From Gluconacetobacter tumulicola (GTDB lineage: Bacteria; Pseudomonadota; Alphaproteobacteria; Acetobacterales; Acetobacteraceae), in NCBI RefSeq assembly GCF_014174215.1, contig NZ_JABEQL010000019.1, positions 1-64,000 of the forward strand: a stretch of DNA of 64,000 nt, given 5' to 3'. The position numbers were made by a program, and so were the translations under genes. Under the pieces are notes generated by a model. It saw nothing but the letters and a program-made list of their open reading frames with translations. It did not search any database and had not been told where the DNA came from. Shown here in pieces: positions 46,995 to 55,272 of the stretch. Every line of letters starts with the position of its first letter. Position 1 is the first letter of the stretch.

Positions 46995-47191
46995 CCGGTT
47001 GGCAGGCGGATTTTCGCGCCGGGGGGCAATAAAGACCCTGTGTGGGGGTGTGAATGTCCCTCGAAGGGCCTATGTATGACTAAATCGAGGTAGAGAAGGC
47101 GTCTGGCTGCCGGTCAGAAGGAAGCCTTACCTGCGTGTTTCGGCACCAGGCGGAATCCGGGTGGCGTCAAGCGTATGGAACAATGGGCAAG

Positions 47192-49126
<1,935 letters not shown>

Positions 49127-49233
49127 CGCTGGCGGGCTGCATTTTGCTTGCAGGATGGGTAGGGAAAACAGGCGGGGGTGGCTCCGTCTGTTTTCGTTTC
49201 AGGACCATGCCATGATGATGGGGCGGGAGGTCG

Positions 49234-50289
49234 ATGGACGCGTTGCGGCTGCTTGAACCGACGGGACTGGTGTTCGGGCAGGATGCCCATGGGGCGGTGG
49301 AGGCGGGGCTGGCCCATTGGCTGGCTGGTGGGCCGGCGGCCTTTACCCTGGCGCGTTTGATCGACGGCGATGCCGCGCGAATGGTCCGTGCGGCGGATGT
49401 GCCTGCTGACTGGCTGGATGTGCTGGCGCGCGTGACCGCGCCGCTGCCCTCGGCGGACCTCGCACCCGGGCCGCAGGTGATGGGAATCCTGAACGTCACC
49501 CCCGACAGTTTCAGCGATGGCGGCCGCCATTTCGGGGCCGAGGCGGCGATTCGCGCCGGCATTGCCATGATCACGGCGGGGGCGGGATTGCTGGATATCG
49601 GCGGTGAGAGCACGCGCCCCGGATCGGTTGTCGTGACGCCGGAGGAGGAATGGGCGCGCATTGCCCCCGTGCTGGCGGAATTGCGGCTTCAGTCCGACGT
49701 GGCGCTGTCGGTCGATACCCGCAATGCGGGGACCATGTCGGCTTCGCTTGGGGCGGGGGCGGCGCTTATCAACGATATCTCGGCCCTGCTGCACGATCCG
49801 TACGCGCTGGCGGTGGTGGCCGATGCCGGTTGCCCTGTCGTGCTGATGCACATGCGCGGCACGCCGCAGACCATGCAGCAATTCGCCACCTATGACGATG
49901 TGGCCGTCGACGTGACGCGTGAACTGGCCGCGCGGATCGACGAGGCGGTGGCGAACGGCATTGCCCGGGACCGGATCATCGTTGATCCGGGCATCGGGTT
50001 TGCCAAGAATGCCGCGCAGAATATCGAGATGATGCGGCGCCTGCCGATTCTGGCCAATCTGGGGTGCCGCGTCCTGCTGGGGACCTCGCGCAAGCGCGTG
50101 CTGGGGGAGATGGCGGGCGTGCCGGTGGCGTCGGACCGTGATCCGGCCACGATCGCCAGCAGCCTGCCGGGGCTGGAACTCGGCAACACCATCCTGCGCG
50201 TGCACAATGTTCCGGCCATGATGCAGGCGCTGAGGGTCTGGCAAGGATTGTGGACCTGCGATAAGCGGGGCAGGCAACAGGCGCGGTGA
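49234..50289 (+). CDS. folP: Dihydropteroate synthase
   Basis: A 351-residue protein. The TIM-barrel DHPS domain begins near residue 80 with VMGILNVTPDSFSDGG, then LLDIGGESTRPGS, INDISALLHD, VLMHMRGTPQTMQ, DPGIGFAKN, and LLGTSRKRVLGEM. It joins 6-hydroxymethyl-dihydropterin pyrophosphate with p-aminobenzoate and is the sulfonamide target. The extra ~80 N-terminal residues (common in Acetobacteraceae and Rhodospirillales) contain no recognisable domain. It is followed by glmM, as in many bacteria. Confidence 0.96.
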   Translation: MDALRLLEPTGLVFGQDAHGAVEAGLAHWLAGGPAAFTLARLIDGDAARMVRAADVPADWLDVLARVTAPLPSADLAPGPQVMGILNVTPDSFSDGGRHFGAEAAIRAGIAMITAGAGLLDIGGESTRPGSVVVTPEEEWARIAPVLAELRLQSDVALSVDTRNAGTMSASLGAGAALINDISALLHDPYALAVVADAGCPVVLMHMRGTPQTMQQFATYDDVAVDVTRELAARIDEAVANGIARDRIIVDPGIGFAKNAAQNIEMMRRLPILANLGCRVLLGTSRKRVLGEMAGVPVASDRDPATIASSLPGLELGNTILRVHNVPAMMQALRVWQGLWTCDKRGRQQAR

Positions 50290-50307
50290 ACCAGGGATAG
50301 CCGGAAG

Positions 50308-51666
50308 ATGACCAAGACCAGAAAACTGTTCGGCACCGACGGTATCCGCGGCACGGCCAACCAGGACCCGATGACGGTGGAAGTTGCCCAGAAGCTGGGA
50401 CAGGCCGCCGGCCTGCGCTTTACGCGCGGGACGCATCGGCACCGTGTGCTGGTGGGCAAGGACACGCGGCTGTCCGGCTACATGATCGAATGCGCGCTGG
50501 TATCGGGGTTTCTTTCCGCCGGGGTGGACGTGACGCTGGCCGGACCGATGCCGACGCCTGCGATCGCGATGCTGACGCGCTCGCTGCGCGCCGATCTGGG
50601 GGTCATGATCTCGGCCTCGCACAATCCGTTCGGCGATAATGGCATCAAGCTGTTCGGGCCGGACGGGTTCAAGCTGACCGACGAGACCGAGGCCGAGATC
50701 GAGGCGTTGATGCGCGCCGACCTGACGGACCGCCTGGCGACGCCCGAGCAGATCGGCCGTGCCTCGCGCCTGAACGATGCGGCCGGCCGGTATATCGAGA
50801 ATGCCAAGGCCTCGTTCCCGCGCGGGCGGCGGCTGGACGGGCTGCGCATCGTCATCGACTGCGCCAACGGTGCCGCCTATCGTGTGGCGCCGACCGCCCT
50901 GTGGGAACTGGGGGCCGAGGTGATCCGGATCGGGTGCGAGCCGAACGGGGTCAATATCAACGAGAATTGCGGCTCGACCCGGCCCGAGGCGCTGTGCGCG
51001 GCGGTGGTGGCGCATGAGGCCGATATCGGCATTGCGCTGGATGGTGACGCCGACCGGCTGCTGATTGCCGACGAACAGGGGCGGCTGATCGATGGCGACC
51101 AGATCCTGGCCCTGATCGCCCGGTCGTGGAGCCGGCAGGGCCGGTTGAGCGCGAAGCAGGTCGTGGCGACGGTGATGTCGAACATGGGGCTGGCGCGCTG
51201 CCTGGACGGGCTGGGGCTGGAACTGGTGCGTACGGCCGTGGGCGACCGCTATGTCGTCGAGCGGATGCGCGAACTGGGCGTCAATCTGGGTGGCGAGCAG
51301 TCGGGCCACATGGTGCTGTCCGATTTCGCGACCACCGGTGACGGTCTGGTCGCGGCCTTGCAGGTTCTGGCGGTGCTGGTCGAGGAGGGGCGGCCGGCCA
51401 GCGAGGTCTGTCGCGTGTTCGCGCCCTTTCCGCAATTGCTGCGCAATGTGCGTTTCGTCGGCAAGAGCCCGTTGCACGCACCCGCGGTGCAGGAGGCGCG
51501 CCGGCAGGCCGAGGCCGAACTGGGGACGGCCGGGCGGCTGCTGTTGCGCGAAAGCGGGACCGAGCCGCTGGTCCGCGTGATGGCGGAGGCCGAGGACCCG
51601 GCGCTGGTGGAGCGTGTGGTCGCCGGGATGTGCGCGGTGATCGGTTCCGCGCAGGAAGCGGCGTAG
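50308..51666 (+). CDS. glmM: Phosphoglucosamine mutase
   Basis: A 452-residue alpha-D-phosphohexomutase that makes glucosamine-1-phosphate for UDP-GlcNAc. The phosphoserine loop is [18 protein letters not shown] (Ser at about 104), the Mg site is LDGDADRLL, the sugar-binding loop is [10 protein letters not shown], and the phosphate-binding loop is [15 protein letters not shown]-terminal [13 protein letters not shown] is typical of GlmM. It lies 18 nt behind folP. Confidence 0.98.
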
Positions 51667-51686
51667 GGGCGCCGGTCTTGGCCATC

Positions 51687-52499
51687 ATGAAGGGTCGCGT
51701 CCTGGTCATCGCCGGCAGCGATTCCGGCGGCGGTGCGGGAATCCAGGCGGATATCAAGGCCGTGACCGCGCTGGGCGGATTTGCCATGACGGCGGTGTCG
51801 GCCCTGACGGTGCAGAACACGCTGGGGGTGAGCGGAATCCTGCCGGTGCCGCCCGATTTCGTGGCGGCCCAGATGCGTAGTGTGCTGGACGATATCGGGG
51901 TGGATGCCTTCAAGAGCGGCATGCTGGACCGGGGAGAGGTGATCCAGGCGGTGGCGGCGGAGGTGCGGGCCCGCCCGGATGTTCCGTATGTGCTGGACCC
52001 GGTGATGGTGGCCAAGGGCGGGTCGCGCCTGTTGCAGGATGATGCGGTGGAGACGCTGATGCGGCATCTGGTGCCGCTGGCGAGCCTGCTGACGCCCAAC
52101 CTGCCGGAGGCGGAGGTTCTGGTCGGCCATCCGATCCGCACGGTGGACGATATGGGCCGGGCGGCCGAAACGCTGCGGCGCGCGGGTGCGCGGGCGGTGC
52201 TGCTGAAGGGGGGGCATCTGGAGGGCGATATCCTGACCGATGTGCTGTGCGAATCGTCGGGCATCTCCCTGTTCTCGGACACGCGGCTGCCGACGCGGCA
52301 TACGCATGGGACCGGCTGCACGCTGGCCAGTGCGATTGCCGCCGGGCTGGCCCAGGGACTGGCCCTGCGCGCGGCGGTGGAACAGGCCCGGCGCTATCTG
52401 CGGGCCGCGATCGCGACCGCACCTGGATATGGAGCCGGCGCGGGGCCGCTGAATCATGCGGTGACGGTCGATTCGGCATGGGGTGCCCCAGGCGCCTGA
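51687..52499 (+). CDS. thiD: Hydroxymethylpyrimidine/phosphomethylpyrimidine kinase
   Basis: A 270-residue ribokinase-fold enzyme carrying out the two phosphorylations of HMP in thiamine synthesis. Motifs are VIAGSDSGGGAGIQADIK, TVQNTLGV, VLDPVMVAKGGSRLL, LTPNLPEAEVL, and THGTGCTLASAIAAGLAQG (catalytic Cys-loop). The ATG at 51687 is 20 nt after the glmM stop. Genes thiM and thiD are far apart in this window. Confidence 0.96.
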   Translation: MKGRVLVIAGSDSGGGAGIQADIKAVTALGGFAMTAVSALTVQNTLGVSGILPVPPDFVAAQMRSVLDDIGVDAFKSGMLDRGEVIQAVAAEVRARPDVPYVLDPVMVAKGGSRLLQDDAVETLMRHLVPLASLLTPNLPEAEVLVGHPIRTVDDMGRAAETLRRAGARAVLLKGGHLEGDILTDVLCESSGISLFSDTRLPTRHTHGTGCTLASAIAAGLAQGLALRAAVEQARRYLRAAIATAPGYGAGAGPLNHAVTVDSAWGAPGA

Positions 52500-52945
52500 G
52501 ACTCTGACCGAAAATGTGTGACGGCTGTGCTTCCTCCAGGCGTCGGACAATACGGGCGGGACTCATTTCGGATGATCTTCGTTTATTATCCCCCTCAGGG
52601 CGCTCGATACGGGCGGAGAATTGATGGGGGATCGAATACACATTCCTTTGAATTCTGGCCGAATATCGCGTGATGTACGTGACGTTGGGGTCACGTTTCG
52701 TTCATGCGGGCGTGTCCGGTATGCATGCGCGATATTTGGCGGCATTGGCGTCTGATGCGCCGATATGCGGGCTTGGCGACGAGGAAGATCTTTCCGGCAC
52801 GTTCGAAGTGCGTTCCGCGGCTTGATGTAACATATTCGTGATCATGGGATTTTGACGCCCGAACCCATCCTAAAAGGATTGTTTACGGAGAGTTACACAC
52901 CTATAGGTAGTAACTGTAGTCATAAACAATCAATGGTTGATTAAC
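52500..52945. other. 446-bp intergenic region upstream of the CtrA-like gene
   Basis: No gene recognised. It holds a 7-bp hairpin ACGTGAC-GTTGGG-GTCACGT (52677-52696), a loose pair ATCCCCC/GGGGGAT (52588-52594, 52626-52632), and near its end a dyad-symmetric operator-like site (52892-52914). The last 100 bp are markedly AT-rich, as expected for the promoter of the regulator. I found no TTAA-N7-TTAA CtrA box. Confidence 0.5.
52892..52914. promoter_or_regulatory. Nested dyad upstream of the CtrA-like gene
   Basis: GTTAC (52892-52896) and GTAAC (52910-52914) flank a perfect 10-bp palindrome ACCTATAGGT (52899-52908), 32 nt before the ATG at 52946. It may be an operator or include a -10 element (TATAGG). 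The binding factor is unknown. Confidence 0.5.
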
Positions 52946-53695
52946 ATGCGTGTCTTGCTCGTCGAAGGGGATGGGAGTGCGGCCCGTGGTACTTCCAGCA
53001 CATTGCGCTCTGTTGGCTACATGATCGACCACGCCGTGACTGGGCACGAAGGGGTCGAGATGCTCCGCCGTTACGATTATGATCTGGCATTACTTGAAAT
53101 GGTACTGCCGGATATTGACGGATATGAAGTCCTGCGGGCGGCCAGGGCCGCGCGGCTGGATACACCCATCGTTGCCATGTCCAGCCTGAACGGGGCCCAG
53201 GCCAAGGTCAGGGCCTTTTCGGCCGGTGCGGACGATTACATTACCCGGCCCTACGATACGCCGGAACTGGCCGCCCGTATCCAGGCGATCGTCCGCCGTT
53301 CGAAAGGCTATAGCCAGCCGGTGCTTCAGGCCGGGCTGGTGAAGCTGTCGCTGGACAGCCGGGAAGTGACGGTGAAGGGGCGGCTGGTTCATCTGACCGG
53401 CAAGGAATACATGATCCTGGAACTGCTCATGCTCCGAAGGGGTACGGTCCTGACCAAGTTCGCCTTTCTTGATCATCTCTATGGCGGGATGGACGAGCCG
53501 GAAATGAAGATCATCGATGTCTTCATCTGCAAGCTGCGCAAGAAATTGCAGCAGGCGGGGGCGAAGAACGTGGTCACGACCGTATGGGGGCAGGGTTACA
53601 TGCTCAGGGAGGATGGCGATGAGGACGCGCCGCCTTCCGGCGTGATGATGTCGCCGCCGCGATCGTCGGAGGAACTGGTCCTGTCGGTTGTCTGA
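52946..53695 (+). CDS. CtrA-family response regulator with non-canonical (pseudo-)receiver
   Basis: A 249-residue OmpR/CtrA-type regulator. The output domain (about 125-232: HLTGKEYMILELL, RRGTVLTK, HLYGGMDEPEMKIIDVFICKLRKKL) is nearly CtrA, so it should bind CtrA-like boxes. The receiver (residues 1-120) keeps the CtrA frame (DYDLALLE at 44-51, DDYITRP), but the phospho-acceptor at position 51 is Glu, the acidic-pocket residue 8 is Gly (VEGDG instead of the EDD motif), and conserved Lys101 is Arg. The ATG at 52946 aligns residue for residue with Caulobacter CtrA. A C-terminal tail of ~20 residues (APPSGVMMSPPRSSEELVLSVV) is extra and ends in two Val. It may be constitutively active or uncoupled from phosphorelay. 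Confidence 0.9.
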   Translation: MRVLLVEGDGSAARGTSSTLRSVGYMIDHAVTGHEGVEMLRRYDYDLALLEMVLPDIDGYEVLRAARAARLDTPIVAMSSLNGAQAKVRAFSAGADDYITRPYDTPELAARIQAIVRRSKGYSQPVLQAGLVKLSLDSREVTVKGRLVHLTGKEYMILELLMLRRGTVLTKFAFLDHLYGGMDEPEMKIIDVFICKLRKKLQQAGAKNVVTTVWGQGYMLREDGDEDAPPSGVMMSPPRSSEELVLSVV

Positions 53696-53766
53696 CGACG
53701 GGTCCTGGGGGTGGAAGCGTACGGATCGGCAAGAGCGCGAGGCATCGTGCTGCCTTGGCGTTCCGC

Positions 53767-53794
53767 AAAAAAAAGCAGGGTCCGAAGACCCTGC
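53767..53794 (-). terminator. Rho-independent terminator (minus strand) behind the Hsp70-like gene
   Basis: On the minus strand GCAGGGTC-TTCG-GACCCTGC (53794-53775) is followed by a run of eight T. The UUCG loop, 8-bp GC stem and T-tract form a textbook terminator for transcripts coming from the Hsp70-like gene. On the plus strand it lies 79 nt behind the CtrA-like stop but without a T-run. Confidence 0.93.
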
Positions 53795-53919
53795 GAGTTA
53801 GCGTGATGATTGAATAATGCGATGCCCCCATCGCCCTTTCCTTATGGCACCGTCAGGGGGCATCGGCCTTGATCTGAATCAAGGACGGATGAAAAGAACG
53901 AAAGGTCTGAAAGGATTTT

Positions 53920-55272
53920 TCAGCAGGAGGCAGGCGCGTCCGTCTGGCGTGCGCTGTCCCCCTGCATCAGGGCCAGCCCTTCGGCGACCGACACGAACTC
54001 GCCCCCGCGATCGATCCGCTGGTTGCCGAAACGCGCCGCGAACAGGGCGCGCACCGCCGGGACGAACGAGGTGCCGCCGGTCAGGAATACCCGGTCGATA
54101 TCGGATTCGGTCAGGCCCGCGCGTTCCAGCGCCGAGGTCACCGCGCCGTCGAACTGCACCAGATCGGGGGCGATCCAGTCTTCGAATGCCGCCCGGGTGA
54201 TCGTGCGCTCGATATGGATATCCTTGTGGTGGAAGCGCAGAATTGTGCTGTCGGCGTGCGACAGTTCGGCCTTGGCGGCGCCGACCGCGCGATACAGGGC
54301 CTGGCCCTGCTGGTCGGCGACCAGGGTGGCCAGCGCGTGCAGGCGGCCGGGTTCGGAGGCGGTGCGCGCGACATCGTCGATCGCGCGCAGCGTGGCCGGC
54401 GTGCGCATCAGCGACAGGCGGTGCCAGCGCGCCAGGCTGGCGTACCATTCGATCGGCACCGGCAGCGGTGCGCCGCCCATGATGCGATAGGTGCCGTCGC
54501 GCCCCAGTTCGGGCGAGACGACATTGTCGATGATCCGGTAATCGAACTGGTCGCCCGCGATGCCCACGCCCGCATGGCCCAGCGGAATGGCCCGGCCGAT
54601 GGCGGGATCGAAGCGCAGGACCGAGAAATCGCTGGTGCCGCCGCCGAAATCGCCGACCAGGATCGTGGCCGGCGCATCCAGTCGCCGGGCGAAGCGCCAG
54701 CCGGCGGCTTCGGGCTCCAGCGCCACCGCGATGCTGCGGAAGCCGGCCTCGGCAAAGCCGTCGCGCAGGCGCTGCTCGCCGAATGCATCATCCGGCAGTT
54801 CGCCGGCGAAGCGCACCGGGCGGCCGACCGTTGCGTCCACGTCGGCCGGGTCGATCCCGACGGCGCGCATCAGTTCGGCGACGAAGAAGCCGACCAGGTT
54901 TTCCAGCGTCAGGCGCCGGCCCACCAGGCGCGTTTCGCGGAACGATGTCTGCGCCAGATAGGATTTCATCGACATGATCAGGCGGCTCTCGGCCGGATCG
55001 TCCAGATAGGCGTCGATGGCGGCGGCGCCGATGGCCTGCTGAACGGCCAGGCGCCCGCGTTCTTCCTCCTGCCACAGGCACAGCAAAGTGCGGCAGGTCT
55101 CGGTTTCGGGATGGCCGGGGAAGGCGAAGCGCGTGGTGTGGGTGTTGCCATCCGGGGTCGCGATGACGACGACGCTGTTGGTCGTGCCGAAATCGATGCC
55201 GACACGGGGGCGTGGCGTGGGGGCAGAGGATATCATCGCGGGTGAATAGGTGTTGCGGATCGGGATGTCCAT
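53920..55272 (-). CDS. Hsp70-family protein (YegD-like)
   Basis: A 450-residue protein with the Hsp70/actin ATPase fold only: phosphate 1 motif VGIDFGTTNSVVVIA, connect motif ILVGDFGGGTSDFSVLRFD, and adenosine motif VFLTGGTSFVPAVRALF. The C-terminal substrate-binding and lid domains of DnaK are missing, which matches the YegD subgroup of unknown client. MISSAPTPRP, 12 residues in, is an alternative start. It ends 126 bp before an intrinsic terminator. Confidence 0.88.
   Translation of the reverse strand: MDIPIRNTYSPAMISSAPTPRPRVGIDFGTTNSVVVIATPDGNTHTTRFAFPGHPETETCRTLLCLWQEEERGRLAVQQAIGAAAIDAYLDDPAESRLIMSMKSYLAQTSFRETRLVGRRLTLENLVGFFVAELMRAVGIDPADVDATVGRPVRFAGELPDDAFGEQRLRDGFAEAGFRSIAVALEPEAAGWRFARRLDAPATILVGDFGGGTSDFSVLRFDPAIGRAIPLGHAGVGIAGDQFDYRIIDNVVSPELGRDGTYRIMGGAPLPVPIEWYASLARWHRLSLMRTPATLRAIDDVARTASEPGRLHALATLVADQQGQALYRAVGAAKAELSHADSTILRFHHKDIHIERTITRAAFEDWIAPDLVQFDGAVTSALERAGLTESDIDRVFLTGGTSFVPAVRALFAARFGNQRIDRGGEFVSVAEGLALMQGDSARQTDAPASC

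Follow-up and report, generated by a model that had tools for sequence, protein, structure and literature searches.

The ctrA locus

The window, by which we mean the whole 64,000-nucleotide stretch of Gluconacetobacter tumulicola DNA analysed here, carries at positions 52946..53695 of the forward strand an open reading frame of 249 amino acids that starts with ATG and encodes a CtrA orthologue (a further in-frame TTG stands at 52937). The product comprises a receiver (residues 1-118), an OmpR-type DNA-binding domain (about 130-222) and a tail (224-249) in which model confidence is low. The CtrA model NF045991 of NCBIfam was the top match among 90 families (model 1-223 on residues 1-222), at 320 bits, which lies below its curated cut-off of 350, and its name points to Rhodobacterales. 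The receiver was matched by PF00072 at 72.5 bits, and the closest named CtrA among the matches listed, that of Gluconacetobacter asukensis, is 99% identical.

Upstream on the same strand (47135..52499) lie four genes that we take to be ftsH, folP, glmM and thiD. The same neighbours recur in Gluconacetobacter, Novacetimonas and Komagataeibacter wherever the locus extends far enough to show them, and in most loci of the acetic-acid clade ctrA adjoins glmM, often with thiD between. A presumably Hsp70-like gene on the reverse strand (53920..55272) is the convergent neighbour of ctrA in part of Gluconacetobacter.

A probable sigma70-type ctrA promoter was read by eye at 52879..52907 on the forward strand (TTGTTT, 17 bp, TATAGG). 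Its putative -10 sits within the palindrome ACCTATAGGT (52899-52908), which in exact form occurs once in the G. tumulicola genome (G000) and once in G185, both times before ctrA, and is absent from G117; TATAGGT is invariant in 17/17 aligned ctrA leaders of the Gluconacetobacter-Komagataeibacter group. The palindrome was considered as an operator, but its distance of 17 bp from TTGTTT suits a sigma70 -10, and we propose no operator there. Within the conserved leader (52822-52908) a further block around TAACATATTCGTGA, some 120 bases ahead of the ATG, is shared by the aligned Gluconacetobacter loci, and the ctrA leaders of the Novacetimonas group (L018-L020) contain TTATTCACA, which we take to be a DnaA-box-like word. 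Positions 52500-53950 gave no Rfam match up to E 1.

Substitutions in the receiver

The first-pass annotation of this DNA had placed Gly8, Glu51 and Arg101 in the window CtrA, and the codons on the forward strand agree: GGG at 52967..52969 gives Gly for the Mg-binding Asp, GAA at 53096..53098 gives Glu for the phosphorylated Asp, and CGG at 53246..53248 gives Arg for the conserved Lys, with charge unchanged. The switch residue at position 79 is retained as Ser (TCC, 53180..53182). Because residues 7-9 (Glu-Gly-Asp), Glu51, Ser79 and Arg101 can be read directly, we regard that observation as right, and Gly8 and Arg101 likewise uphold its statement that other catalytic residues are gone. The residues used for comparison are Asp8, Asp51 and Lys101 of Caulobacter CtrA. 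All three residues are also present in 36/36 of the ChpT-bearing relatives described below.

The receiver was modelled as an intact fold, with 10-residue blocks at pLDDT of at least 79, and the model differs from the CtrA receiver chain of 4qpj by 0.6 A over 117 columns. With the PF00072 match, Glu51 and this modelled fold, the window CtrA has a pseudo-receiver, that is, a receiver fold that lacks the phospho-acceptor Asp. The DNA-binding domain is conserved, as had been noted, with 50/93 positions at least 90% conserved in the acetic-acid clade as compared to 47/93 in ChpT-bearing relatives.

Distribution of Glu51 among relatives

Glu51 was found at 30 of 80 separately sequenced loci and Asp51 at the remaining 50; these loci, from named organisms or MAGs, are the best 80 of 170 relatives, and the share of Glu51 is biased upward because of that selection and because one of the six search patterns contained Glu51. 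By label, within the same best 80, it occurs in Gluconacetobacter (10/10), Novacetimonas (3/3), Acetobacter or Acetobacter-MAG (12/12), 4/11 Komagataeibacter and one other MAG, and in each of the ten Gluconacetobacter inspected, of which the window is one, codon 51 reads GAA. The proposal of a natural, fixed D51E is supported by these loci, with the correction that the trait is shared by a clade and is not peculiar to one genome.

An alignment of Acetobacteraceae CtrAs at positions 8, 51 and 101, which the first-pass annotation had suggested, showed that within the clade positions 8 and 101 vary more than position 51. The Acetobacter-type proteins combine Glu51 with an intact acidic pocket (EDD) and Lys101 in 11/12 cases, and in the proteins from Gluconacetobacter, Novacetimonas and Komagataeibacter residue 8 is G, N, H, Y or P in 24/24 and residue 101 is Arg in 21/24. 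As EDD and Lys101 are still intact in nearly all Acetobacter-type proteins, their sequences suggest that Glu51 preceded pocket erosion in Acetobacter.

The CckA-ChpT relay

CtrA is a textbook cell-cycle regulator gated by a phosphorelay, and it had been advised that the genome be checked for a second, canonical ctrA and for cckA and chpT. This advice proved apt, in that no second canonical ctrA, no ChpT and no CckA-grade kinase was found. The Pfam model of ChpT gave 0 matches in the G. tumulicola genome with all 11 candidates scored and a positive Caulobacter control; as a sole test we judged it too weak, since it missed or left unranked the ChpTs of G025, G098, G113 and G140, all four of which were recovered by a profile built from the family. 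That profile, built on 16 ChpT sequences of relatives, found no ChpT in the G. tumulicola genome (15/51 candidates scored) or in four companions of the same genus. It placed ChpT in 116/200 Acetobacteraceae genomes, set clearly apart by the empty range from E 5.3e-18 to 9.5e-7; 124/200 genomes had any match, 8 of these only above E 9e-7. In 17 ChpT-bearing loci (L094-L110), picked for linkage on one contig and so not representing a frequency, chpT lies about 6-7 kb from ctrA.

A CckA profile from 15 relatives had its best match in the G. tumulicola genome at E 2.4e-100, within the range of other hybrid kinases. A cut-off of 1e-130, set after the scores were known and with at most 7 candidates scored per genome, was passed by 32/36 ChpT-bearing genomes and by 0/40 Glu51 genomes. 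The absence of CckA is less firm than that of ChpT because of this limited number of candidates and because 4/36 ChpT-bearing genomes (G022, G075, G106 and G113) also gave no strong match. A hybrid kinase of 696 amino acids, the best match to the CckA models among four proteins scanned in the genome, scored 327 against a cut-off of 1000, has the order receiver-PAS-kinase-receiver and was not accepted as CckA. In all, the genome gave 37 receiver matches, plus hybrid kinases; CpdR was not found among three further receivers, two of which are CheY-like and one of which is without a family match.

The next-best CtrA match, 40% identical, was likewise rejected as a second canonical ctrA. This CtrA-like paralogue (L002:1447-2262, forward strand; G000:C2, about 18.8-19.5 kb) has Gln for the phospho-Asp and other pocket losses, so that the genome holds two CtrA-family proteins with degenerate receivers. 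The gene beside it is presumably flgD, and the paralogue is possibly a flagellar regulator of the Rem/FtcR type. Rem and FtcR, which resemble CtrA, have degenerate receivers like the window CtrA, but are paralogues rather than CtrA itself. Rem is described as an OmpR-family regulator that works without phosphorylation and is inhibited by MirA (PMC12632262).

Residue 51 with and without ChpT

The relay and residue 51 were compared over the CtrAs of 103 of the 200 genomes, a set assembled without the search whose pattern contained Glu51. It comprises 67 of the 84 ChpT-lacking genomes and 36 of the 116 ChpT-bearing ones, the latter chosen by hand, many because of chpT near ctrA. All 36 ChpT-bearing genomes have Asp51, the acidic pocket (EDD; EDE in 4) and Lys101. 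Without ChpT, residue 51 is Glu in 40, Asp in 18, Arg in 4, Ala in 2 and His, Gly and Asn in 1 each, and ChpT was found in none of the 40 Glu51 genomes. A canonical CtrA stands without ChpT in four genomes, two of them about 90% complete (G037, G195) and two near complete (G088, G011). Five partial or frame-broken loci (L209, L210, L211, L215 and L219) were left out of these counts; L210, ChpT-bearing, has Asp51, L219, ChpT-lacking, has Asp51 with DHD and Arg101, and the other three are without residue 51.

The CtrA tree, of the "quick" kind and with long branches flagged, requires at least 13 changes at residue 51. In it the acetic-acid clade is mostly Glu51; Asp recurs in some Komagataeibacter, in g42 and in a single g29 genome, and g73/L085 has a Glu51 of separate origin. 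The four Arg51 sequences, putative CtrA orthologues placed on a branch of length 2.0, are nearer in score to CtrA than to the paralogue; dropping them alters no statement on Glu51. Only 2 phylogenetically independent contrasts fall on supported branches, which leaves independent-pairs tests underpowered and puts the link between ChpT and Glu51 beyond statistical test, so that the association of relay and residue 51 in these sequences is strong as a pattern, but comes from few independent events. Loci L137, L150, L152, L153 and L154 of a neighbouring group (g65 and g51, in which no ChpT was found) keep Asp51 with an eroded acidic pocket, an order opposite to that in Acetobacter. No CtrA match at E 1e-45 was obtained in 12/47 genomes searched, among them six ChpT-lacking ones (G027, G102, G069, G089, G134 and G171) and the ChpT-bearing G119 and G191, and CtrA may have been lost entirely in some lineages.

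Proteolysis and CtrA boxes

It had also been suggested that the window CtrA may be controlled by proteolysis, its hydrophobic end VLSVV being likened to the AA end of ClpXP-degraded CtrA. This found no support. None of the 10 Gluconacetobacter-labelled tails ends in AA, as compared to 10/10 Acetobacter-labelled CtrAs; over the genomes of the survey AA tails occur in 18/36 ChpT-bearing, 3/39 Glu51 and 12/27 other ChpT-lacking cases. PF07323, which we take to be the family of the adaptor RcdA, was found neither in G. tumulicola nor in six relatives, whether or not these have the relay. With regard to CtrA boxes, counts of TTAA pairs in G000 and G185 gave no clear preference for TTAA-N7-TTAA among spacers 5-9 (spacer 7 in 4/18 and 6/21 pairs, respectively). 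As Asp51 also returns in several sublineages, the description of the protein as constitutively active was not borne out.

What selection kept in the receiver

The constraints on the receiver were read from 60 acetic-clade CtrAs, taken from the CtrA tree and including named rows outside the ChpT search. Position 51 is acidic in 57/60 (His, Asn and Ala occur once each) and position 8 in only 14/60; by entropy rank they stand at 36/118 and 102/118, respectively. Position 79 is Ser/Thr in 60/60, position 98 Tyr/Phe in 60/60 (Tyr in 58/60, as compared to 11/36 in ChpT-bearing relatives, most of which have Phe) and position 101 Lys/Arg in 54/60, and the clade has newly fixed positions 90, 91 and 98. 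From these counts at 51, 8, 79, 98 and 101 it follows that the residues of the phosphate-driven conformational switch are retained and that the metal-binding chemistry is being lost.

When pairs whose DNA-binding domains diverge by 0.15-0.20 are compared, the receivers differ by 0.39 among Glu51 proteins and by 0.24 among ChpT-bearing ones. Among close relatives dN/dS is not raised, which indicates that the receiver is still under purifying selection: the Gluconacetobacter medians (41 pairs) are 0.13 for the receiver and 0.125 for the DNA-binding domain, and for the receiver elsewhere the 17 Acetobacter pairs have a median of 0.05 and the 152 pairs of the ChpT-bearing set one of 0.20.

A CtrA that probably outlived its relay

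On its sequence, the window protein is a CtrA orthologue by descent and not a member of a CckA-ChpT relay. The reading that we favour, at a probability of roughly 60%, is that CtrA persisted after the loss of its relay and now regulates independently of phosphorylation, the charge of the active state coming from Glu51. The CckA-ChpT relay would have been lost in an ancestor of the acetic-acid bacteria, ChpT not being found in those of their genomes that were searched and the absence of CckA being less firm; that CtrA remained under selection and that Glu replaced Asp51 is seen in the sequences. Glu51 probably supplies a negative charge and, together with Ser79, Tyr98 and a basic residue 101, would favour the active receiver without phosphate, as we infer from the D51E allele, by analogy with which Glu51 would make CtrA active without phosphate. 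The Mg2+-binding acid pair needed for phosphotransfer would then have become dispensable and eroded, an erosion visible as a pattern among the genera, and CtrA activity would now be set by the amount of protein from the conserved promoter, or by partner proteins. The fuller version, a natural phosphomimetic CtrA in which D51E locks a phosphorylated-like state after relay loss, the chemistry then decays, the switch 51-79-98-101 is selected and control is by dose, with the genera showing the stages, we consider an even bet. The earlier suggestion of phosphorylation-independent control by level or proteolysis thus survives in part: independence of phosphate is likely, given the fixed D51E, the lost catalytic residues and the failure to find chpT, a CckA-grade kinase or a second canonical ctrA, and the part concerning proteolysis is not supported.

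Alternatively, residue 51 might have become irrelevant once the relay was lost, in which case CtrA would owe its action to how the protein itself folds or dimerises, and Glu51 would be a tolerated one-base change rather than the source of activity. Asp returns in some sublineages and origins are few, which makes drift at 51 a real rival, if an unlikely one; D, H, N and A all occur in the clade, relay-less proteins drift elsewhere in the receiver too, and the Glu-bearing pseudo-receiver ChxR still bound DNA in vitro after its Glu had been replaced (PMC4395418). Drift sits poorly, however, with a position 51 that is acidic in nearly every clade member while position 8 has mostly lost its acid, and with the entropy ranks of the two positions. 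The return of Asp51 within the Glu51 clade, and the single His, Asn and Ala, do mean that Glu51 is not indispensable.

It is improbable that phosphorylation still controls CtrA, whether a different kinase or phosphotransferase acts on some other residue or on the Glu itself. The many receivers and hybrid kinases of the genome would allow it, and Asp96/Asp97 are acidic in 60/60 acetic-clade CtrAs, though they are likewise so in 36/36 ChpT-bearing ones; the acid at position 8 is lost in 46/60 and Asp51 in 53/60, and a review of aspartate-less receivers (ALRs) states that it knows of no Glu phosphorylation in bacterial signalling (PMC4395418). Less probable still is a receiver that has turned to binding a ligand or partner and so switches CtrA in some other way, for while the receiver is modelled as folded, is under purifying selection and has positions 90, 91 and 98 newly fixed, the kept active-state residues 51, 79, 98 and 101 are not required by such an account, and no candidate ligand or partner emerged from the analyses described here. 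A sequencing error or a decaying gene, for which no support was found, is ruled out with near certainty by the same codon in separate assemblies and the low dN/dS.

Relation to known systems

The window CtrA has a laboratory counterpart in the D51E allele, which serves as a phosphomimetic in work on Caulobacter and Rhodobacter (PMC12186491, PMC6363796). The Caulobacter allele concerns the same gene, position and substitution; unlike it, the window form is natural and clade-wide, CckA and ChpT were not found in its genome, and it has the further losses G8 and R101. In other pseudo-receivers activation does not always come from a Glu in this position, and for some of them the residue there was shown not to be what makes the protein active (PMC12632262, PMC4395418). 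In Rhodobacter unphosphorylated CtrA has a role of its own (PMC6363796), which a CtrA locked in the active form would forfeit.

A paper of 2003, going by its title, reportedly found that Glu at the CtrA site gives essential activities without raised DNA binding. Among aspartate-less receivers Glu is the commonest replacement, at 26% (PMC4395418), and regulators of the ALR or pseudo-receiver (PsR) type such as ChxR, HP1043 and RitR share with the window CtrA a receiver fold without the phospho-Asp. Unlike them, this is the orthologue of a master regulator, with intermediates in relatives and a named relay that was not found. Term searches of the main text of two reviews of such receivers gave no mention of CtrA (PMC4395418, PMC12632262).

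That members of the relay are missing in a Rhodospirillales cluster was described by Brilli in 2010 (PMC2877005), and a 2021 study reported chpT, cckA and divL in 27-36% of Rhodospirillales genomes as compared to 72-82% for ctrA, gcrA and ccrM, leaving open that the missing genes were merely hard to find (PMC8116508). The scarcity of chpT and cckA in Rhodospirillales and the prevalence of Glu in aspartate-less receivers are thus already known. Both genomic studies share with ours the scarcity of the relay, and in their accessible parts no change at the CtrA phosphorylation site is reported; in the accessible parts of the open-licence literature we likewise found no report of such a change in acetic-acid bacteria.

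A 2025 review calls the activation and inactivation of bacterial pseudo-receivers a mystery (PMC12632262). Here one orthologue is met in three states, namely with the relay, Asp51 and an intact pocket, with Glu51 as the sole pocket change (Acetobacter; in one such case, G008, a search for ChpT gave nothing) and with the pocket eroded in genomes that yielded no relay (Gluconacetobacter, Komagataeibacter), and a stepwise account is therefore testable by allele swaps between genera. Our findings suggest that a CckA-ChpT-CtrA relay is not to be assumed in studies of the cell cycle, motility and cellulose in acetic-acid bacteria, and these bacteria would be a naturally occurring experiment on how regulators persist once their signalling pathway is gone.
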